A DNA stretch of 64,000 bases from Asanoa ferruginea (lineage in GTDB: Bacteria > Actinomycetota > Actinomycetes > Mycobacteriales > Micromonosporaceae): contig NZ_QUMQ01000001.1 in the NCBI RefSeq assembly GCF_003387075.1, positions 558,001 to 622,000 on the forward strand, in the 5' to 3' direction. Below, piece by piece: positions 16,928-44,086 of this stretch. Position 1 is the first letter of the stretch, and each line of letters begins with the position of its first letter. Position numbers and translations under genes: made by a program. The notes beneath the pieces were generated by a model. That model saw only the letters and a list, made by a program, of their open reading frames with translations. It was not told the DNA's origin and searched no databases.

Positions 16928-17563
16928 CTATCCGCTAATGGACAGTCCGTGCCGGAGCATGGCGAAGCCGCGATCCGCGGCGGCGACGGCCTCCGGGTAG
17001 CGCGCGTCGCCGCTCATCCCGGCGGTCAGGTGGCGGCGGTTCTCGTCGGTCAGGGCGCGCTGCACCGCGAAGATCTGGTAGGCGGCCAGCCGGGCCGTGC
17101 CGTCGTCACCGGCCGGCACCACCGCCTCCAGCACCTCGGTCAGGGCCGCTTCCGCCGCCGTCTGGTAGAGCAGCAGTCGACCTTGGAGGGACGGCACCGA
17201 CAGGACCATGGCGACGAACGCGAGCGTCTGCGGGTGGTCATCGAGGCCGGTGACCGGGTCGCGGCGGGCCAGCCCGTCGAGAAAGTGCGCATGCAGCGCG
17301 TCGATCGGGTCGGTTCCCGCCGCCCGGTCGCGCACGACATTCGCCGCCTCGTTCTGGTGGTCGGCGAACGCGCCGATGACCAGGTCTTCCTTGCTCGGGA
17401 AGTATTTGAACAGGGTCCGTTTGGACACCTCGGCCGCCTCGGCGATCTCGTTCACGCCGACCGCGTCGAACCCGGACCGCAGGAACAGCCTGGTCGCGGC
17501 GTCCTGGATCGCCTGCTCGATGCGCAGCCGCTGCCGCTGCCGGAGCCCAAGCTGTTCCGCCAT
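16928..17563 (-). CDS. TetR-family transcriptional regulator
   Basis: A 211-residue TetR protein. The N-terminal HTH is complete (AIQDAATRLFLRSGFDAVGVNEIAEAAEVSKRTLFKYFPSKEDLVIGAF), followed by a helical ligand domain. It is divergent from an alpha/beta hydrolase gene. The 55-bp spacer holds a strong dyad, so it probably represses both itself and the hydrolase until an unknown ligand binds. Confidence 0.92.
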   Translation of the reverse strand: MAEQLGLRQRQRLRIEQAIQDAATRLFLRSGFDAVGVNEIAEAAEVSKRTLFKYFPSKEDLVIGAFADHQNEAANVVRDRAAGTDPIDALHAHFLDGLARRDPVTGLDDHPQTLAFVAMVLSVPSLQGRLLLYQTAAEAALTEVLEAVVPAGDDGTARLAAYQIFAVQRALTDENRRHLTAGMSGDARYPEAVAAADRGFAMLRHGLSISG

Positions 17564-18480: not shown

Positions 18481-18526
18481 TCACCGGAATCCGGTGACGA
18501 CCGCTCACCTGGGCGACGACAAACCT
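18481..18526 (+). promoter_or_regulatory. Shared promoter element, copy 1 (upstream of MBL-AKR operon)
   Basis: The palindrome TCACCGG-AAT-CCGGTGA (18481-18497) is followed at offset 20 by CCGCTCACC and at offset 36 by CGACAAACCT; the gene start lies 36 bases further on. The same parts with the same offsets recur at 24307, and the first two also at 20399. This is probably the operator plus core promoter of a small regulon. Confidence 0.75.
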
Positions 18527-18562
18527 GGTCAGGAGCCATCCTGAGACGTAGAGGAGATCGTC

Positions 18563-19531
18563 ATGACCGGGTCCAACACCGCGCCGCCGCTGCCGGACTA
18601 CGCGCCTGTCCCCCGCTCGGCGCTCGGTCCGGCGCTCAACGCGCAGGGCTACTTCGTCGGGCGGGTGGAGCGCAACCTGTTCTGGGTGACCGACGGCACC
18701 TACCAGAGCGCGTTCCTGGCCACCCGCGACGGAATCGTGCTGTTCGACGCACCACCGACCATCGGGCACAACCTGCGCCGGGCGGTCGACGAGATCGCCG
18801 AAACGGAGGGTGTGCCCAACACGGTGACCCATCTCGTCTACTCGCACCATCACGCCGACCACGGCGGCGCGGCGAGCCTGTTCGGCGGCGACGTGGTCCG
18901 CATCGGGCACGCCGAGACCCGGCGGCTGCTGCTGCGCGACAACGACCCGGCCCGGCCGGCCCCCGAGGTCACCTTCGAAGACCAGCACACCCTGCGGGCC
19001 GGCGGCGAGCGCGTCGAGTTGGCCTGGCACGGCCCCAACCACTCGCCCGACAACATCTATATCCACTTCCCGGACCACGACACGCTGATGCTCATCGACG
19101 TGGTCAATGCCGGTTGGGTGCCCATCTACAACCTCAACCTCAGCGAGGACGTGCCCGGCTATCTCGACGCCCCGGCGCGAGCTCTGGCGTACCCCTGGAA
19201 GCATTTCCTCGGTGGGCACCTGGGCCGGCTCGGCACCCGCGACGACCTCACCCTGCACCAGCGCTACATCGACGACATCGTCGAGAGCGCCCGCGAGGCC
19301 CTCGGCTCGGTCGATCCCACGCCCTGGTTCCAGAAGTACGGCGAGAACGCGTGGGCTGCGGTCGCCGGCTATCTCGACGCCGTCACCGCACAGGCCGCCG
19401 CGCCGGTGATCGCCAAATACACCGGAGTGCTGGCGGCCGCCGACGTGCCGGCCTTCACCACCAGCACCACGTTCACCATTCTCCAGTCCATGCGCCTCGA
19501 CCTGGGGGCCGGCTCACAGGTGCACCCGTGA
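18563..19531 (+). CDS. MBL-fold metallo-hydrolase
   Basis: A 322-residue MBL hydrolase with the full metal motif SHHHADHGG (ligands H95, H97, D99, H100), HGPNHSPDNIYIHFP (third His) and LMLIDVVNAGW (bridging Asp). The longer C-terminal helical domain (LHQRYIDDIVESAREAL) resembles alkylsulfatase/quorum-lactonase-like actinobacterial MBL proteins, but the substrate is unknown. ATG 18563 has gaggag seven bases away. The last codons and stop overlap the next gene's GTG. Its 3' end is part of a 47-bp repeat also found at 25135. Confidence 0.87.
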   Translation: MTGSNTAPPLPDYAPVPRSALGPALNAQGYFVGRVERNLFWVTDGTYQSAFLATRDGIVLFDAPPTIGHNLRRAVDEIAETEGVPNTVTHLVYSHHHADHGGAASLFGGDVVRIGHAETRRLLLRDNDPARPAPEVTFEDQHTLRAGGERVELAWHGPNHSPDNIYIHFPDHDTLMLIDVVNAGWVPIYNLNLSEDVPGYLDAPARALAYPWKHFLGGHLGRLGTRDDLTLHQRYIDDIVESAREALGSVDPTPWFQKYGENAWAAVAGYLDAVTAQAAAPVIAKYTGVLAAADVPAFTTSTTFTILQSMRLDLGAGSQVHP

Positions 19532-19533
19532 CC
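19487..19533 (+). repeat. 47-bp repeat, copy A (end of MBL gene / start of AKR gene)
   Basis: Matches 25135-25181 at 44 of 47 positions. Here it encodes the MBL C-terminus SMRLDLGAGSQVHP and the overlapping GTG start of the next gene. The second copy stands alone before a nitroreductase start. Confidence 0.9.
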
Positions 19534-20415
19534 CTCGGTGGGACCTTCGCACTCGGCCCGTGGCGCGTGCACCGGGCCGGGTACGGGGCGATGCAGCTCA
19601 GTGGCGACGGCGCTTTCGGACCGCCGCGCGACCACGACGAGGCGGTCGAGGTGCTGCGGGCGGCCGTCGCGGCAGGCGTGGACCACATCGACACCGCGCA
19701 CTACTACGGCCCCGGCACGGTCAACCAGCTCATCCGCGAGGCGCTGCACCCCTACCCGCCAGGCCTGGCCATCGTCAGCAAGGTGGCCGCCCGCCGCGAC
19801 GGCGATGGCGCGCTGCTCCGATTCGACGACCCCGACCAGTTGCGCCAGGGCATCGAGGACAACCTGGCCACGCTCGGCACGGGCCGGCTGGCCGCGGTGA
19901 ACCTGCGCCTGCTGGACCCGTCCGAGGCACCGGGCGCCCGGTTCGACGCGCAACTGGCCGCACTGGTGCGGGCCCGCGACGAGGGCCTGATCGACGGCGT
20001 GGGCATCAGCAGTGTCTCGCGGGCCCATCTGTTGCGCGCGGTGGACCAGACCGACATCGTCTGCGTGCAGAACCTGTTCAACCTGGCCGACCAGGGGTCC
20101 CGCGACGTGCTCGACGAGTGCGCCGCACGCGACATCGCGTTCGTGCCCTACTGCCCGCTCGGCCTGCCCGGCGAGCAGCGGCACCGACTGCTCACCAACC
20201 CGGTGCTCGCGGCCGTCGCAGCACGGCTCGGCGCCACGCCGGCCCAGGTCGCCCTCGCCTGGCTGCTCGACCTGGCACCCAACATCCTGCTCATCCCGGG
20301 CACCCGAACCCGCAGCCACCTCGCCGAGAACCTCGACGCCACCACGGTGCGACTCGACGACGCCGCCCGCGCCGCCCTGAGCGTCCCGGACGGGAACATC
20401 ACCGGGATCGGGTGA
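19528..20415 (+). CDS. Aldo/keto reductase
   Basis: A 295-residue aldo/keto reductase on a TIM barrel. Catalytic residues are D55 and Y60 (DTAHYYG) and K85 (IVSKVA). The usual active-site His of the tetrad is replaced (LAAVNLRLLDP), as in several bacterial AKRs of the YdbC/pyridoxal-reductase-like group. The GTG start overlaps the MBL stop by four bases (GTGA), giving translational coupling. It probably reduces a small aldehyde or ketone with NADPH. Its final codons run into the shared promoter element of the next gene. Confidence 0.87.
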   Translation: MTLGGTFALGPWRVHRAGYGAMQLSGDGAFGPPRDHDEAVEVLRAAVAAGVDHIDTAHYYGPGTVNQLIREALHPYPPGLAIVSKVAARRDGDGALLRFDDPDQLRQGIEDNLATLGTGRLAAVNLRLLDPSEAPGARFDAQLAALVRARDEGLIDGVGISSVSRAHLLRAVDQTDIVCVQNLFNLADQGSRDVLDECAARDIAFVPYCPLGLPGEQRHRLLTNPVLAAVAARLGATPAQVALAWLLDLAPNILLIPGTRTRSHLAENLDATTVRLDDAARAALSVPDGNITGIG

Positions 20416-20427
20416 CGCCCGCTCACC
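20399..20427 (+). promoter_or_regulatory. Shared promoter element, copy 3 (upstream of esterase gene)
   Basis: TCACCGG-GAT-CGGGTGA (20399-20415) and CCGCTCACC at offset 20 (20419-20427) repeat the arrangement seen at 18481 and 24307. The offset-36 box is degenerate here. The left half overlaps the last codons of the aldo/keto reductase gene, showing that the downstream esterase has its own regulated promoter. Confidence 0.65.
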
Positions 20428-20482
20428 AGGCTGACTGCCAGTCTTTCCAGGTCAGCAGGGCCAGCCGAAGGGGAGATCCGCC

Positions 20483-21379
20483 GTGAGCATCGAGCAGCGC
20501 GAGAAACTTGACGCGATTCTGCGACAGTCGGCCTTTCCCGCCGACAGCACCGTTGACGAGCAACGACGACAGCTTCGTGAGCTGCTGTCGGCATTTCCCC
20601 TTCCCGCCGATGTGACCGTGACCGAGGGGAAGCTGGGCGGCGTCCGGACCGCCGAGATCACCGTTGCCGGGGTCGAGCCCGAGCATGTCGTCCTCTACTT
20701 CCACGCCGGCGTCTACGTGCTCGGCGAAGCGGTCCTCACCGCCGACCTGGCCTCCCAGGTCGGCCGGCGGACGCGCTCGAAGGTCATCTCCGTCGACTAC
20801 CGGCTCGCGCCCGAGCACCCGTTTCCGGCCGCGGTCGACGACGCGTTCGCGGCCTACGAAGCGCTCCTGCGGAACGGCACGGCTCCGTCGGACATCGTCC
20901 TCGCGGGAGAGTCCGCCGGCGGTGGGCTCGCGATCGCCACCCTCATCAACGCCCGCGATCGGGGCTTGCCGTTGCCCGCGGCCGCCTACCTGATGTCGCC
21001 CTATGTCGACCTCACGCTGGCCGGGACGAGCATGCGCACCAAGCAGGACGTCGACCCGCTGCTCAGCCCGACGGGCCTGCGACCCCGGGTCACCGACTAC
21101 ACGGGTGGAACAGCCGCGACCGACCCGCTGATCAGCCCCGTCTTCGCCGACCTGTCCGGCCTGCCGCCCCTGATCATCCAGGCCGGAAGCCACGAGGTGC
21201 TGCTCGACGACGCCGTGCGTCTCGCGGCCCGGGCCGCCGCCGACGATGTCGAGGTCACCCTCGACATCACCCCTGGTGTGCCACATGTCTTCCAGGCCTA
21301 CTACGGAATCCTCGACGAAGGGACCGCCGCGTTGGACCGCGCCGGACAGCGTCTGTCGGCACGTCTGACCGCGGCCTAG
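20483..21379 (+). CDS. HSL-family (type IV) alpha/beta hydrolase / esterase
   Basis: A 298-residue esterase of the hormone-sensitive-lipase group: YRLAPEHPFPAA, nucleophile motif GESAG (S144), a late VPHVFQAYY His region and a DD acid region. The HSL oxyanion motif HGGG is changed to HAGV at residue 74, keeping only the first two elements. ATG-like GTG 20483 has gggaga upstream. The 3' end overlaps the convergent LuxR gene by four bases. It probably hydrolyses short acyl esters in the cytosol. Confidence 0.87.
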   Translation: MSIEQREKLDAILRQSAFPADSTVDEQRRQLRELLSAFPLPADVTVTEGKLGGVRTAEITVAGVEPEHVVLYFHAGVYVLGEAVLTADLASQVGRRTRSKVISVDYRLAPEHPFPAAVDDAFAAYEALLRNGTAPSDIVLAGESAGGGLAIATLINARDRGLPLPAAAYLMSPYVDLTLAGTSMRTKQDVDPLLSPTGLRPRVTDYTGGTAATDPLISPVFADLSGLPPLIIQAGSHEVLLDDAVRLAARAAADDVEVTLDITPGVPHVFQAYYGILDEGTAALDRAGQRLSARLTAA

Positions 21380-23979
21380 GCGAGCAGCCGCAGCTCTCTG
21401 GCGCGCTGCACCGCGGAGCTGCGCCCCTGGGTCCGCAGCTTCGCGTAGATGCTGCGGATGTGGGTGTTGACCGTGTTCACCGAGACCGAGAGCGCGTTGG
21501 CGATCTCCGGCCGGGACAGGTTGGTCGGAAGATAGCGCAGCACCTTCAGCTCGCTCGGGCTCAGCGGCGCGGTCGCCGCGGCCGGCTCCGAAATGGACGA
21601 TCCGCGCACGACGTCGAGAACGGTGGCCAGCAGGGCGGCGTGCGCTGTCTCGTGCCGCGGCAGGGCCTCGAGCACCGCACGCGATCCCGTCATCGCGAAC
21701 GGCAGCACGAGCCGGTCGGCCTCGGACAGGGCGAGCGCGTTCTCGGTGGCTCTGTTGGCGAGGCGTTGTTCGCCGAGTTCGCGGTGGGCCAGCGCCGCCA
21801 GCAGGTGTGCCTCGACGACGGTCATGTAGCCGATGGCCGGAGAGTTGCCGTCGAGCGCGGCGAGCGCCCCGGCCGGGTCGCCCTCCGCCAGGCGGATGAC
21901 CGCGCGGGCGTTGTCGATCTCGGCGGTGCCCGCCAGGTCGTCGTCGAGCGCGGCCAGCGCCGCCCGAGCCTCGGCGAGCTGCCCGAGCCGGGCGTGGGTG
22001 GCCAGTCGCCAGCTCGTGAGTTGCCGCGCCAGCGCGTGCGGCCCCTCCAGCTGTGCTTGCAGGTCTTCGGCCGTGCGGAACTCGGCCAGTGCTCGGTCGT
22101 GCTGTTGGCGGCCGGCGAACAGCATGCCGCTGGCCAGGTGCAGCAGGAGCCCGATGAGCGGCCCGGTGTCGGTTTCCAGGGCGCGGGCGGCACGGCGCAG
22201 CCAGCGATCGGCTTCGTCGAACTCGCCGGTCCAGACGAGCACGCCCGCGAGGTTGAGCAACGCGGGAGAGATGACCGGCTCGGTGCCCCACCCGTGCTGT
22301 TCGGCGAGTGCGATCGCCTCCCGGCAGCGCCGCGCCGTGGTCGCGAACGGCTCGATCTTCGAGGCGAACGCGAGTTCGGCAAGGCACGCGACTTCGAGGT
22401 AGGGCCGTCCGATGCTCCGCGCCAGCTCCGCGCCCTGGCGCAGGTGTCGCTGGCTGTCCTGGTTGCCCAGCGACCACGCTTCGGCGATGCCGAGGTTCAT
22501 CAGCGCCGTCGCGCGCAGGTCGTTGTCGAGTGCGGCGTCGCTGTCGGACCCGGCGGCGGTCGGCGAGGCGAGGAACCTGACCTGATCGACCACGTCGGCG
22601 AAGTTGCCTCGCTTGCGCGCCAGCGACAGTCGCAGCGCCGCGGTCGCGACGTCGAGGCGGTGCCGGCGGTCTGCGCCGATCGCGGCGACCGCGGACTCGG
22701 CCACGGTCAGGTGCGCGGCGGCCTCGTCGAGCCGTCCCCGGGCGAGCTCGTTGGTCGCCCGCGCGAGGGGAAGGTCGGGGTCGTCGGTGGCCACGCCGGG
22801 CGGGAATGCCCGCAGCAGGGCCTCGATCGTCTGGGCCTGCCCGTCGAGGGTCAGGCCGAACGAGTGATCGGCGAGCAGCCGAGCCGCCACGGCCCAGTCG
22901 CCCGCGGCCTGGGTGTGGCGGATCGCCTCGACGGTCTCGCCGTGCTTGCTGAGCCACTGGGCGGCCAGCCGGTGCAGGGCCGGCAGTTGCTCGGGCAGCC
23001 GGCGCCGCAGTTCGAGGCGGAGCAGGTCGGCGAAGAGGTGGTGATAGCGGAACCACGTGCGGGCCGGATCGAGCGACACGACGAACGCGTTGGCGTCTTC
23101 GAGGTCGAGCAGGATGGCTTCGGAGCCGGGGTGACCGGTCAGCAGGTCGCCGAGCTCGCCGTTGACCCGGTCGAGCAGCGAGGTGCGCAGGAGGAGCTGC
23201 TGGATCTCGGCCGGCTGGCCGTCGAGCATCTCGGCGAGCAGATATTCGGCGACGGTCCGGTTGCTGCCGGAGAACTCGTCGACGAACCGTTCGGAGTCTG
23301 GACTGCTGGCCATCGAGATGGCCGCCAGCCGCAGGCCCGCCGCCCAACCTTCGGTGCGCTCGTGCAGTTTCGCGGCCCCGGCCTCCGACAGGGTGATGCC
23401 GGACGCCTCGAGCAACTCGCGGGTCTCGCGTCGCGTGAACCGCAGGTCGGCGTCGCGGATCTCGGCCAGGTCGCCGGCGAGGCGCAGCTTGTGCAGCCGC
23501 AGCGGCAGATCGCGCCGGGTCGCGAGGATCGCGTGCACCTGCGGCGGCAATTCTTCGAGGAGTTGGGCGAGCGCGTCCACCGAGGTCAACTCATGGAGAT
23601 CGTCGATGACCAGGTAGACGCGGTCGGGGAACTCGCCAAGCGCGGCGCGTACCCGATCAACGATCGTGCCCTGGTTGAAGTCGGGCGTCGCGGCCAGTCG
23701 CTCGCTGTCGCCGGACGTGCCGTGGGCATCCCGGATGGCGGTGAGCACGGCGATCCAGAACTGCTGCGCGTCGTGCTGGTCGCGGCGCACCTGGACGACG
23801 GCCAGCCGGCGCGACTGACCCGGCTCGTCGGCCCAGGCCCGCAACAGCGAGGTCTTGCCGCTGCCGGCGGGTGCCGAGATGAGCGTCACCTTGGCGTCGG
23901 CCGCGCTGGTGAGGGATGCGAGCAGATCCGCGCGCTGGATCAGCCGCGGAGCCGCCCGGTGGTTTGCTCGTGAAGACAC
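21376..23979 (-). CDS. MalT/LAL-type LuxR-family ATP-binding transcriptional activator
   Basis: An 867-residue regulator. Walker A APAGSGKTS (36-44) and a Walker B-like VYLVIDDLHEL mark an N-terminal STAND-type ATPase. A long TPR-like helical middle (about 350-780) follows, then a C-terminal LuxR HTH in the last 65 residues (LSPSELKVLRYLPTNLSRPEIANALSVSVNTVNTHI). Such proteins oligomerise on inducer plus ATP binding to activate promoters. The start is GTG 23979. It lies among three units sharing one promoter element (18481, 20399, 24307), which makes it the prime candidate activator. Confidence 0.92.
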   Translation of the reverse strand: MSSRANHRAAPRLIQRADLLASLTSAADAKVTLISAPAGSGKTSLLRAWADEPGQSRRLAVVQVRRDQHDAQQFWIAVLTAIRDAHGTSGDSERLAATPDFNQGTIVDRVRAALGEFPDRVYLVIDDLHELTSVDALAQLLEELPPQVHAILATRRDLPLRLHKLRLAGDLAEIRDADLRFTRRETRELLEASGITLSEAGAAKLHERTEGWAAGLRLAAISMASSPDSERFVDEFSGSNRTVAEYLLAEMLDGQPAEIQQLLLRTSLLDRVNGELGDLLTGHPGSEAILLDLEDANAFVVSLDPARTWFRYHHLFADLLRLELRRRLPEQLPALHRLAAQWLSKHGETVEAIRHTQAAGDWAVAARLLADHSFGLTLDGQAQTIEALLRAFPPGVATDDPDLPLARATNELARGRLDEAAAHLTVAESAVAAIGADRRHRLDVATAALRLSLARKRGNFADVVDQVRFLASPTAAGSDSDAALDNDLRATALMNLGIAEAWSLGNQDSQRHLRQGAELARSIGRPYLEVACLAELAFASKIEPFATTARRCREAIALAEQHGWGTEPVISPALLNLAGVLVWTGEFDEADRWLRRAARALETDTGPLIGLLLHLASGMLFAGRQQHDRALAEFRTAEDLQAQLEGPHALARQLTSWRLATHARLGQLAEARAALAALDDDLAGTAEIDNARAVIRLAEGDPAGALAALDGNSPAIGYMTVVEAHLLAALAHRELGEQRLANRATENALALSEADRLVLPFAMTGSRAVLEALPRHETAHAALLATVLDVVRGSSISEPAAATAPLSPSELKVLRYLPTNLSRPEIANALSVSVNTVNTHIRSIYAKLRTQGRSSAVQRARELRLLA

Positions 23980-24055
23980 GTCTGAACTCGATCCTCAGCG
24001 CGCGAGAAAGCGTCTTCAGCCTACTCCCGGGCGGCCGGGTCGCCAGGTCCTGGCG

Positions 24056-24301
24056 ATGCGCACTCACCTGGTCATGCCGCACGGTCGGGATATGGGCCCC
24101 GCGTCCGCCACCTACCTGATCCGGATCGACGGTCATCTCGGCAGCACGTTGCTGTCCGCGTTCCCGGCGCTGGCGTGGGAGCGGCAGGGCCCGGACACGG
24201 TCCTGACCGGGGTGCTGGACCAATCCGGCCTCTACGGGGTGCTGGCGGAGATCGAAGCCCTCGGCCTCGACCTGCTGGAGGTCCGCCGGCTCGGCCTCTA
24301 G
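24056..24301 (+). CDS. Small conserved hypothetical protein (81 aa)
   Basis: A small alpha/beta protein, divergent from the LuxR gene. The core ATYLIRIDGHLGSTLLSAFPALAWERQGPDTVLTGVLDQSGLYGVLAEIEALGLDLLEVRRL looks like a compact ferredoxin-like fold of a type common in actinomycetes, with no assigned function. ATG 24056 is used here. ATG 24092 is an alternative, and neither has a strong ribosome site. It directly precedes the shared element at 24307. Confidence 0.65.
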   Translation: MRTHLVMPHGRDMGPASATYLIRIDGHLGSTLLSAFPALAWERQGPDTVLTGVLDQSGLYGVLAEIEALGLDLLEVRRLGL

Positions 24302-24306
24302 GCGGA

Positions 24307-24352
24307 TCACCGGATTCCGGTGATGTCCGCTCACCGTCCCGTCGACAAACCT
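24307..24352 (+). promoter_or_regulatory. Shared promoter element, copy 2 (upstream of SDR gene)
   Basis: TCACCGG-ATT-CCGGTGA (24307-24323), CCGCTCACC at offset 20 and CGACAAACCT at offset 36 (24343-24352). All three parts and both offsets are identical to copy 1 at 18481, although the spacer bases differ. Confidence 0.75.
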
Positions 24353-24394
24353 CAAGAGGTCCAGATGGGTACGCGACGCACTACGGAGGCCGTG

Positions 24395-25075
24395 ATGACC
24401 GAACGCGTGACAATCCTGGCCGGCGCGGGCGGCGAGCTCGGCCGCGCGACTGCGGCGAAGCTGGCGGCCGCGGGCCGCACGGTGATCGGCATCGGCCGCG
24501 ACGAAGACGGGCTCAAGCGGCTGCCCGACGGCGTCGCCTTCCGGGTGGCCGATCCCACCGACCCGGCCAGCGCCAGGAACGTCGTCGAGCGGATCGCCAC
24601 CGAGGTCGGGCCGCCCGAGGCGCTGGTCAACACCGTCGGCGCCTACCACCTGGGCGCCGCGCTGGACGCGACGCCGGAAGACCTGCGGCTGATGATCGAC
24701 GTGAACGTCGGCTCCGCCCTGTGGCTGACCCAGGCCGTGACGCCCTACATGCGCGACCAGGGCTCGGGGACGATCGTGCATGTGGCCGCCCGGCCCGGGT
24801 TGGAGCCGACCGCGGGCATGGTCGCCTACGGCGTGAGCAAGGCCGCGCTTGTCCACCTCACCCGGGTCCTCGACCTGGAGCTGCGCCCCCTCGGGATCCG
24901 GGTGAACGCCGTCGCACCCCAGCTCATCGACACCGCGAAGAACCGGCCCAATCTGTCTGCCGACCTGTTGGCGCACGCGGCCTCCCCCGAAGCGGTCGCC
25001 GACGTCATCGCCTACCTCGTCAGCGACGCCGCCACCCTCGTCAGCGGCGCGGTCGTCCCCGCGTACAGCGCCTGA
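24395..25075 (+). CDS. SDR-family oxidoreductase
   Basis: A 226-residue short SDR. AGAGGELGRAT is the cofactor loop, VNTVGAYH the NNAG equivalent, and Y145-GVS-K149 the catalytic pair; the SDR serine is replaced around IVHVAARPG, so activity may be altered. ATG 24395 has ggagg seven bases away and is preferred to ATG 24365 or 24320. It is driven from the shared element 43 bases upstream. The substrate is unknown. Confidence 0.85.
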   Translation: MTERVTILAGAGGELGRATAAKLAAAGRTVIGIGRDEDGLKRLPDGVAFRVADPTDPASARNVVERIATEVGPPEALVNTVGAYHLGAALDATPEDLRLMIDVNVGSALWLTQAVTPYMRDQGSGTIVHVAARPGLEPTAGMVAYGVSKAALVHLTRVLDLELRPLGIRVNAVAPQLIDTAKNRPNLSADLLAHAASPEAVADVIAYLVSDAATLVSGAVVPAYSA

Positions 25076-25134
25076 CCTCATCGTCCGGAAAGGACGGTCA
25101 CGTCATCCACCAACCGCCGTTCATCCTCTTCGAA

Positions 25135-25181
25135 TCCATCCGCCTCGACCTCGGGGCCGGCTCACAGGTGCACCCATGACC
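25135..25181 (+). pseudogene. Repeat copy B: relic of an MBL-gene 3' end
   Basis: 44 of 47 bases match 19487-19533. An open frame through it reads ...FILFESIRLDLGAGSQVHP and stops, paralleling the MBL C-terminus at 19531 (...FTILQSMRLDLGAGSQVHP). No MBL gene precedes it, only the SDR gene. It therefore looks like the surviving tail of a deleted or recombined MBL homologue, and it supplies the context of the next gene's start. Confidence 0.6.
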
Positions 25182-25592
25182 ACCTTCAACGACACCATCA
25201 TCGAGAGCTTCCGGGCCAACGCCGGCGTGCTCGGCGGTCACTGGGAGGGGAAGACCACCCTCCTGCTGCACACGCCGGGCCGCAGGTCGGGCCGGGAGTT
25301 CGTCAATCCGCTCGTCGCGGCGCCCTACGGCGCGTCTTACATCGTGTGCGGCAGCGGTGGCGGCACGCCACAGGACCCGCAGTGGGTGGCCAATCTGGAG
25401 GCCGTCGACGGGCCCGTGACCGTCGAGCTCGGCGCGCACACCGCCGTGGCCGACCATCGGGTGGTCCGCCACGGCCGCGACGACGACTGGGAGCAGCTCT
25501 ATGGGGTGTGGCGCACCTACTGGCCGGACGCCGCAGGCTATGAGAAGCAGACCGACCGGAAGTTCCCGGTCGCGGTGATCACCGTGCGGTGA
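25176..25592 (+). CDS. Ddn-like nitroreductase-family deazaflavin (F420)-dependent oxidoreductase
   Basis: A 138-residue split-barrel protein of the Ddn/FDOR-A family: LLLHTPGRRSGREFVNPLVAAPYGASYIVCGSGGG, then DPQWVANLEA and WEQLYGVWRTYWPDAAGYEKQTDRKFPVAVI, all family landmarks. Members use reduced coenzyme F420 to reduce quinones or nitro compounds. ATG 25176 overlaps the TGA of the relic frame in the 47-bp repeat, the same arrangement as at 19528. The 3' end overlaps the convergent FMN reductase gene by 14 bases. Confidence 0.88.
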   Translation: MTTFNDTIIESFRANAGVLGGHWEGKTTLLLHTPGRRSGREFVNPLVAAPYGASYIVCGSGGGTPQDPQWVANLEAVDGPVTVELGAHTAVADHRVVRHGRDDDWEQLYGVWRTYWPDAAGYEKQTDRKFPVAVITVR

Positions 25593-42927: not shown

Positions 42928-44086
42928 GAGCGGCCGGGCCCGGTGTGTGGCCCGGTGCGATCGACGCCTGCACGACGAGGGCCGCGGCGCCGATGCCGGC
43001 CGCGTCGCGGGGCTGGGCCGACAACTCCACCGTCACCGGGTGCCGGTGTCGCGAGTGGGCGGTCCGCTCCAGGTGTGCCCGCACCCGCCGGGTGTAGATC
43101 GAGCCGGCCACCGCGACTCCCGGCCCGGTCAGCACGAGCCGGCCGAGGTCGAGCAGGTTGACGACCGAGGTGACCGCGACGGCGAGGTGCCCGGCCGCGC
43201 GGTCGAGCACCTCGAACGCGACCCGGTCGCCGTTGACCGCCGCCCGGGCGACCGCGTCGTGGGCCCCGGAGATGGTGGGGCCCAGGCGGTCGCGCAGCGT
43301 AGGGATCTCCCGGGCCGTCTCGACAACGGCTGCCATCGACGCATATCGCTCGATGCAGCCCTGGTTGCCGCACGGGCAGGCGCGGCCCTCGTAGTCGATG
43401 GAGAGATGGCCGAGTTCGCCCGCGTCGAAACTGGCACCGCGAAAAAGGGCGCCACCGAAAACGAATCCGGCGCCGATGCCGGTCGACACATAAATGCTGC
43501 CGAACACCTGCTCGCGGGAGACCCGGCGGCTCCAGAACTCGCCGAGTGCGGCAGCGGCCGCGTCGTTTTCCACGATGACCGGCAGGCCTATTTTCGCGGC
43601 CAGTTCGGCGCGGAACTCGGGCGGCGCGGGCTCACCCGGATAGGGCGCCGGAGCGACGACCGCCAACCCTTCGATGCGGTCGACGGGCAGGTCGAGGCCG
43701 TTGGTGAAATCGTCGAACCGGGTGGCCAGCAACTCCGGCAGGGCGCCCGCGGAACGCGGCACCACCTCCCGGCCGACCATTCCGCCGGTCAGGTCGATCG
43801 CCACGCAGGTGATCGTGTCGACGCCCAGGTGGAAACCGACACCGAAACGGTTGGCGGGGCTTATCGCGATCAGTTTCCGCGGCTTTCCCCGCGGTGAGCC
43901 GGCCGAGCCGGTCTCGTGGATGATGCCGTCGGTGATGAGGTCGCGAACGATGTTCGAGATCGACGGCTGGGTCAGGCCGGTCAGTTCGGCGAGTTCCGCC
44001 CGGCTGATCGTGCCCGCGGACCGGATGACGTCGACGATGAGCGCGCGGCTGCCGGGTCCGGCAGCGGGCGCTTCACGGCGGGCCAT
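42908..44086 (-). CDS. ROK-family transcriptional regulator (mannan locus)
   Basis: A 392-residue ROK repressor: N-terminal winged helix (TISRAELAELTGLTQPSISNIVRDLITDGIIHE), ATP-binding-like LGVDTITCVAIDLTGG, zinc motif CPCGNQGCIERYAS and preceding GELGHLS. ROK regulators bind DNA until a sugar or sugar phosphate is bound. It is divergent from a LacI-type sensor and next to the mannan genes, so it is the likely repressor of 45118-51524. Its last codons (ALFHG) are encoded by the inverted-repeat element. Confidence 0.9.
   Translation of the reverse strand: MARREAPAAGPGSRALIVDVIRSAGTISRAELAELTGLTQPSISNIVRDLITDGIIHETGSAGSPRGKPRKLIAISPANRFGVGFHLGVDTITCVAIDLTGGMVGREVVPRSAGALPELLATRFDDFTNGLDLPVDRIEGLAVVAPAPYPGEPAPPEFRAELAAKIGLPVIVENDAAAAALGEFWSRRVSREQVFGSIYVSTGIGAGFVFGGALFRGASFDAGELGHLSIDYEGRACPCGNQGCIERYASMAAVVETAREIPTLRDRLGPTISGAHDAVARAAVNGDRVAFEVLDRAAGHLAVAVTSVVNLLDLGRLVLTGPGVAVAGSIYTRRVRAHLERTAHSRHRHPVTVELSAQPRDAAGIGAAALVVQASIAPGHTPGPAAQALFHG

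Follow-up and report, generated by a model that had tools for sequence, protein, structure and literature searches.

The window analysed here is a stretch of 64,000 nucleotides of the Asanoa ferruginea genome (contig NZ_QUMQ01000001.1, positions 558,001 to 622,000), and positions given without a prefix count from its first letter. Within it, four copies of a promoter element built on a 17-bp palindrome surround the gene of a MalT-like regulator of the LAL family. As judged from sequence comparison, these copies very probably mark a real, local LAL regulon with four promoters. We further consider it highly likely that the palindrome is the binding site of the LAL protein, which would act on this local, horizontally moving regulon as a class II activator of the MalT type.

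A preliminary description of this DNA had reported three copies of the element, with CGACAAACCT at offset 36 common to copies 1 (18481) and 3 (24307). Checked against the window sequence, the coordinates and offsets were exact, and the shared CGACAAACCT is the -10 region of the two copies. All three copies are real, but the count was wrong, as a fourth, diverged copy at 24040 had been overlooked. This copy reads TCGCCAGGTCCTGGCGA-TGC-GCACTCACC; its arms are perfect and its -10 is spaced as in the other copies. An A at position 42 and a T at position 46, counted from the first base of the element, are kept in all four copies, copy 2 included. A 17-point core-base score run over the 64-kb window reached at least 14 at four sites. 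The four copies span 5.9 kb around the MalT-like gene, an arrangement of several promoters near a resident regulator that is known from Actinoplanes. The predicted +1 positions listed here were inferred from the copies that precede a small open reading frame (see below).

18481-18526, forward strand: promoter copy 1, with palindrome 18481-18497, TCACC 18505-18509, -10 AAACCT 18521-18526 and predicted +1 at about 18533; precedes the genes of a metallo-beta-lactamase-fold (MBL) hydrolase and an aldo/keto reductase (AKR).
20399-20444, forward strand: promoter copy 2, with palindrome 20399-20415, TCACC 20423-20427, -10 CAGTCT 20439-20444 and predicted +1 at about 20451; precedes an esterase gene.
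24040-24085, forward strand: promoter copy 4 (diverged), with palindrome (TCGCCAGGTCCTGGCGA) 24040-24056, TCACC 24064-24068 and -10 CACGGT 24080-24085.
24307-24352, forward strand: promoter copy 3, with palindrome 24307-24323, TCACC 24331-24335, -10 AAACCT 24347-24352 and predicted +1 at about 24359; precedes the gene of a short-chain dehydrogenase (SDR).
21376-23979, reverse strand: MalT-like LAL regulator, 867 aa, with an N-terminal ATPase domain and a C-terminal LuxR/GerE helix-turn-helix (HTH).

Counted from the first base of the respective copy, the first in-frame starts lie at 83 (MBL), 85 (esterase) and 59, 86 or 89 (SDR). The last TGA of the copy 2 palindrome doubles as the AKR stop codon.

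The element is rare in its own genome. The preliminary description had proposed a genome-wide pattern search and had named an equal frequency at unrelated promoters as the outcome that would speak against it. When the 9.07-Mb genome was searched with the 29-bp pattern at up to 3 mismatches, four matches were recovered: three exact ones, all in this locus, and one with 3 mismatches at C1:4555688 that has neither -10 base. The reversed-pattern control gave 0 and 0 matches in the same genome. With exact copies only in this locus, a common promoter element of the genome is ruled out. The 17-bp palindrome alone, at up to 1 mismatch, occurs in six places, namely the three copies and three others, one of which, at window position 43033, lacks the TCACC box. 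A relaxed 46-bp pattern at up to 3 mismatches also gave six matches (controls 1 and 0), which are the three copies, the copy at 24040 and two sites either side of a LAL paralogue at C1:29054-31501.

To describe the architecture of the element, a motif was built from 23 distinct copies with up to 2 mismatches to the search string. Comparison across relatives gives a promoter of about 47 bp, composed of the 17-bp palindrome, N7, TCACC, N12 and A-N3-T. The conserved stretch of the 23 copies reads A-TCACCGG-A(A/T)T-CCGGTGA-nG(A/C)-CC(G/T)CTCACC-TGnCC, followed by A42 and T46, which are present in 23/23 copies. Little information is found outside about -2 to +48 of the motif, which rules out duplication of a longer repeat, and the motif contains no conserved -35 hexamer. 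A fourth half-site, GGTGA at positions 38-42, was hinted at by a few copies and was dropped, as it is not kept in the 23-copy motif. In a -10 hexamer the two most important bases are an A and, four bases on, a T. Taking A42 and T46 as these bases (hexamer at positions 41-46), we placed the transcription start near position 53. On this scale of predicted starts the palindrome would lie at about -52 to -36 and the extra TCACC at about -28 to -24, with 36 bases from the end of the palindrome to the predicted start. Such a layout would be that of a class II activator site.

A small gene of the family that we call C2 bears on this start position (labels with G and L denote genomes and loci). Of 11 loci with C2, 10 have its ATG at position 53 of the element. 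In the eleventh, G006, it lies at 52, and the -10 there has moved closer by one base as well. In 5 of the 11 loci the frame has no earlier possible start than this ATG. Transcription from the -10 of the element would exclude earlier in-frame starts, and the arrangement looks as if the C2 mRNA were leaderless. In G007 and G009 C2 is fused to the esterase. The window member is:

24092-24301, forward strand: small protein of 69 aa, family C2, with its ATG at position 53 of copy 4; predicted leaderless.

In-frame ATGs at 24056 and 24074 are also possible for this gene, and its protein has no Pfam match. A C2 relative of 65-70 aa was seen near LAL genes of another class in Streptomyces (L152, L153, L155, L156, L157), and C2 may be an old partner of such regulators.

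The regulator has the size and the N-terminal ATP-binding region of LAL/MalT-like proteins (867 aa, where about 800-900 aa are usual for the class; AAA_16 at 36 bits versus a cut-off of 32.6). It contains APAGSGKTS, and the strict pattern G-x4-GK[ST] is unmatched. The LuxR/GerE HTH (PF00196, 2.4e-11) occupies residues 805-859. The best family model is MalT PRK04841 (5e-77), yet the score of 259.8 bits stays below the family cut-off of 537 for MalT proper, the maltose regulator. MalT 8bob (4.2e-39) is its only solved relative at E<=1e-5. The recognition helix carries the motif NTVNTH. In the alignment the helix has N in 14 of 15 orthologues and S in the remaining one; at this place all 13 other LALs aligned have K or R. 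Clear sites were found for two K-class LALs (the paralogue in the same genome and L128), and their palindromes have the inner bases TCACCCG instead of TCACCGG. In some N-class copies, one arm has C, T or A at the inner positions. The suggestive link between the helix residue (N versus K) and the inner bases makes this a candidate specificity residue. A TetR gene at 16928-17563 was ruled out as the regulator, since it is a singleton among the loci compared.

Co-occurrence of element and regulator was followed across genomes. An exact scan of a collection of 84,980 species, in which records close to the genome of the window may be missing, returned 6 stretches, all from Streptomyces. In 6 of 6 of these genomes a relative of the window LAL lies on the same contig: four are full-length at 58-60%, one is split into two frames with a gap (G010) and one is matched in its C-terminal part only (G011). 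In the genus mate G002 a 57% orthologue is flanked by two copies with 1 and 2 mismatches, and the other four genomes of the genus have neither element nor orthologue. We then searched the same 295 Streptomyces genomes (the genus of G007) by protein and by pattern. An orthologue class with 56-70% identity and more than 400 bits was found in seven: G007, G008, G022, G074, G079 (partial), G133 (twice) and G285 (twice). Next came a 45% class in two of the same genomes, and the remaining protein matches reached at most 40% identity and less than 305 bits. As few candidates were scored per genome (3 in Streptomyces, 2 in the window's family), further weak paralogues would not show. At up to 1 mismatch, the element is present in exactly those 7 genomes and in 0 of the 288 others, and none of these copies is more than about 5 kb from the regulator. 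The chance of 7/7 in 295 is 2.8e-14, a figure that ignores relatedness and linkage; five of the seven genomes are independent, G007 and G008 having entered through the element. The earlier proposal that the element and the LuxR-type regulator belong together thus gains support. In the window's family the orthologue was found in 2 of 354 genomes and the element, at up to 1 mismatch, in the same 2.

At 2 mismatches one site each was also found in three more Streptomyces genomes (G157, G218, G055), and 16 further genomes of the family have a match. Among these 2-mismatch matches outside orthologue genomes, both -10 bases are kept in ten from genus g23, which we take to be Micromonospora, and otherwise only in G055. 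At 3 mismatches 90 of the 295 Streptomyces genomes match, mostly by chance as we assume. Outside orthologue genomes, the 3-mismatch matches, among them a TCACCGGCnTCCTGAGCCT-like string that recurs, were assumed to be chance or coding sequence.

The MBL hydrolase allowed us to separate the element from one of its targets. The 295 genomes contain 27 MBL homologues (E<=1e-60) in 20 genomes. All 4 that lie in regulator loci have, in a stretch fetched with about 1.5 kb on each side, a site with 16-17 of the 17 core points, whereas 0 of the 23 others reach 14/17 there. In turn, G074, G079 and G133 have regulator and element and no MBL at this threshold. Since MBL genes outside the cluster have no site and the element is kept without an MBL gene, the element follows the regulator and not the MBL target.

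In the mechanism that we propose, binding of an inducer and ATP would lead to oligomerisation of the regulator. Its LuxR-type HTH domains would bind the 17-bp palindrome, and the extra TCACC half-site would probably be bound too. The bound regulator would replace the missing -35 hexamer and keep RNA polymerase at a -10 reduced to an A at -11 and a T at -7. By this route the four promoters could be switched jointly, and with them MBL hydrolase and aldo/keto reductase, esterase, small protein and SDR. The few genomes per group, the differing gene orders and the identity of the regulator, 71% to Streptomyces G074 versus 57% to the genus mate G002, suggest that the cluster may move horizontally.

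Several observations weigh against this reading. Regulator, element and several targets travel as one linked cluster, and linkage could explain part of the co-occurrence; the MBL comparison counters it for one target only. Elements are also kept where the regulator lies in two frames with a gap (G010, L048) or where only its C-terminal HTH part was matched (G011, L049; G079, L121). Six of the 11 C2 loci, the window included, have an earlier in-frame ATG or GTG inside the element, which leaves a leaderless start as one possibility. With our simple gene caller, 3 of 39 copies in orthologue loci have no assigned start, and two copies lead to unclassified open reading frames, one 85 bases after the copy near the second regulator of G133 and one in G010. 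Furthermore, ten g23 genomes carry symmetric TCACCCG-N3-CGGGTGA-N3-CCGCTCACC sites (including L129-L137) with the third box and the A and T kept, and 9 of these 10 lie away from any LAL-like gene (phmmer E<=1e-5, fetched stretch).

These g23 sites favour an explanation in which another LuxR-fold regulator, such as a BldM homodimer or BldM-WhiI with their TCACC/GGTGA half-sites, binds the element and the LAL gene is a mere neighbour. BldM and BldM-WhiI sites are read by a LuxR-fold HTH, and BldM is general to Streptomyces. The element at up to 1 mismatch, however, is restricted to the 7 genomes, out of 295 of Streptomyces, that have the LAL orthologue. The BldM Group I site, given as TCACcCgnncGgGTGA in the available text of PMC4125116, resembles the element, but it is a 16-bp palindrome with CG inner bases, versus 17 bp, N7 between TCACC and GGTGA and mostly GG/CC here. 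We regard this explanation as improbable. We give the same low weight to the idea that the copies are linked by descent in one mobile cassette and are read by a regulator encoded elsewhere, or by none. The patchy distribution and the unequal regulator identities described above would fit such a cassette. Against it, the genes behind the element are unrelated and vary with the host (MFS, SnoaL, molybdopterin oxidase, SDR, MBL, esterase), the flanks carry little information, unlinked MBL homologues have no element, and no other regulator recurs in all loci when proteins are clustered at 35% identity.

Whether the LAL protein activates or represses is a separate matter. A repressor or dual regulator, with the palindrome blocking RNA polymerase, would agree with the overlap of palindrome and -35 region, as seen in operators, and the Streptomyces LAL SCO6993 is a repressor according to the part of PMC9628970 at hand. 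An unaided polymerase, however, would have no conserved -35 hexamer to use, and the Actinoplanes relative with the same geometry is an activator in the available text of PMC7567727; we consider repression unlikely. Chance resemblance of GC-rich sequence could be suspected from the 17-bp pattern alone, which at 2 mismatches has 11 matches in the window versus 3.3 expected, several of which count one palindrome on both strands; a total of 11 also came up in 1 of 100 shuffles. In nine loci fetched for 2- or 3-mismatch matches, 10 places scored at least 14/17, all at or overlapping those matches, and 90,870 control bases outside the seed matches gave 0. With three exact copies of the full element genome-wide against 0 in the control, the empty control bases and the co-occurrence in exactly 7 genomes, we rejected chance, to which we assign almost no probability. 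Binding and activation by the LAL protein remain the reading that we prefer.

The genes downstream of the window copies are the following.

18563-19531, forward strand: MBL hydrolase, target (Pfam Lactamase_B, 6.5e-08).
19528-20415, forward strand: AKR (Pfam 4.3e-39; NF007695 above cut-off).
20483-21379, forward strand: HSL-type alpha/beta-hydrolase esterase, target (Abhydrolase_3, 1.4e-53).
24398-25075, forward strand: SDR, target (adh_short, 1.1e-37, profile tested from 24365).
25176-25592, forward strand: F420H2-dependent reductase-like protein (PF04075, 2e-22).

The NCBIfam beta-lactamase models listed for the MBL protein were all far below their cut-offs. Since the GTG start of the AKR gene overlaps the MBL stop (GTGA), both genes probably form one operon. 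The SDR ATG at 24398 is preceded by GGAGG, and an in-frame ATG at 24365 is also possible. The F420H2-dependent reductase-like gene possibly belongs to the SDR transcript, which is uncertain; in G002 and G074 a member of its cluster (C12) likewise lies close to the regulator. A repeat of about 75 bp (local alignment score 48) links the 3' end of the MBL gene (window 19458-19533) to 25107-25181. This second stretch lies immediately before the F420-reductase-like gene and runs into its start; the repeat appears to record a duplication or rearrangement within the cluster.

The 15 orthologue loci contain 39 copies with a score of at least 14/17, where rows with a score of 14 were kept only with at least 6 paired arm bases. 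With genes called by a simple in-house script, 36 of the 39 copies are followed by the in-frame start of a called gene on the same strand. The targets across loci are MBL hydrolase, SDR, esterase, C2, aldo/keto reductase, MFS transporter, SnoaL-like proteins and molybdopterin oxidase, together with an F420-type reductase in G074 and a regulator fragment in G079. In seven loci (G000, G002, G006, G008, G010, G074 and the first copy of G133) the regulator gene starts divergently next to a copy that faces the opposite direction. The regulator or a fragment of it lies downstream of a copy on the same strand in G079, G011 and possibly G285 (C24), where the element could drive the regulator gene. Hydrolases and oxidoreductases, with an efflux pump in some hosts, point tentatively to a role in degrading or detoxifying an ester- or lactone-like compound. 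The MBL gene of G008 (L046:10542-11621) is interrupted by a TAG codon. Genes with AfsA and TetR-C domains, types known from gamma-butyrolactone signalling, adjoin the cluster at L045:5691-7465, and members of these two sequence clusters were also seen in G009, G011 and G079.

Variant sites occur at other LAL genes. Among 31 loci of other-class LALs, 6 sites with at least 15/17 were found in 5 loci, three of them from one genus, while 26 loci have none (reversed control 0, dinucleotide-model mean 0.0). Mid-class regulators (44-45% identical) gave one 15/17 match with poor arms in L115 and none in L118. The LAL paralogue in the window's own genome (C1:29054-31501; L144) is flanked by two variant elements, G000:C1:28982 and 31663, one reading TCACCCGGTGTGGGTGA and the other weaker. 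A GGATGA-type palindrome followed by TCACC was seen at L144:4049. For the g23 variant sites, BldM or a distant LAL is a possible regulator, and the promoter design may be shared by other LuxR-fold regulators. The g23 sites have ATG or GTG at 52 or 53 in 9 of 10 cases, but these open frames of only 5-79 codons, and a leaderless reading was dropped. A site in G483 (L138) is unexplained: it has good arms, one of the two -10 bases and no LAL-like gene on its 8.3-kb contig. In genus g4, presumably Actinoplanes, a TCATCC-type palindrome with the same spacing to A-N3-T was found in 37 of 67 genomes (controls 0), and TCACC at positions 25-29 in 0 of the 30 sites examined.

From these variants a broader, still rather doubtful idea can be formulated. 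Actinobacterial LALs might share a three-half-site promoter, TCACC-N6/7-GGTGA-N7-TCACC-N12-A-N3-T, in which the inner bases of the palindrome, read by one helix residue (N for GG/CC, K for CG/CG), would set specificity and let several LAL regulons coexist in one genome without cross-talk. The window's own genome has two versions, the window locus and the paralogue with its TCACCCG-type site. Against this idea stand the 26 of 31 other LAL loci without a 15/17 match, the absence of the third box from the 30 Actinoplanes-type sites and the deviating inner bases of some N-class copies.

The preliminary description had called the regulon undescribed. A regulon of similar kind has been published for Actinoplanes, and in our literature search no paper of the collection searched contained either full palindrome, and none of those listed described the window regulon. 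The kind of system is known, then, while this form of the regulator and the DNA signature that goes with it appear to be new. Neither the TpdR sites nor those of SCO6993 proposed in the available parts of PMC6099782 and PMC9628970 match the window element. The closest known system, as far as the available text of PMC7567727 describes it, is the MalT regulon of Actinoplanes sp. SE50/110. There, MalT (ACSP50_3915) is a resident activator, supported by deletion and overexpression, and a 17-bp palindrome, TCATCC-5nt-GGATGA, overlaps the -35 region at 17 mapped starts, its 3' end lying 34.4 +/- 1.0 bases before the start. The Actinoplanes region apparently moved between Micromonosporaceae (PMC7567727). 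Both systems have the LAL gene inside the region and a 17-bp palindrome, whose placing here would be the same on the predicted starts. They differ in the half-site (TCACCGG/CCGGTGA here) and, on the window side, in the fixed third TCACC box, the other targets, the NTVNTH helix and one apparently leaderless target.

With E. coli MalT the regulator shares the plan of ATPase and LuxR-type HTH and the match to the MalT model and 8bob. The MalT box core GGA(T/G)GA, as quoted in the accessible part of PMC9628970, resembles the GGTGA of the window. MalT sites, however, are described as direct repeats (PMC6099782, in the passage citing Vidal-Ingigliardi 1991), whereas the window site is palindromic and the regulator scores below the MalT family cut-off. 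BldM and BldM-WhiI of Streptomyces likewise use a TCACC/GGTGA palindrome, but beyond length and inner bases they differ in being response-regulator systems of developmental genes, as far as the text of PMC4125116 goes. TpdR of Rhodococcus jostii is, like the regulator proposed here, an actinobacterial LAL activator, in its case of a catabolic operon, although its proposed site is a 15-nt direct repeat (PMC6099782, in part). LAL regulators are numerous in actinomycetes: the available text of PMC3282765 counts 14 putative ones in S. coelicolor, and that of PMC9628970 places several in metabolite clusters and reports, for SCO6993, palindromes from which no consensus site could be defined. For the system described here, a cis element, its spacing to a likely start, the regulator and a candidate specificity residue can be proposed together, and the element pattern can be used to find the targets of orthologues in other genomes.

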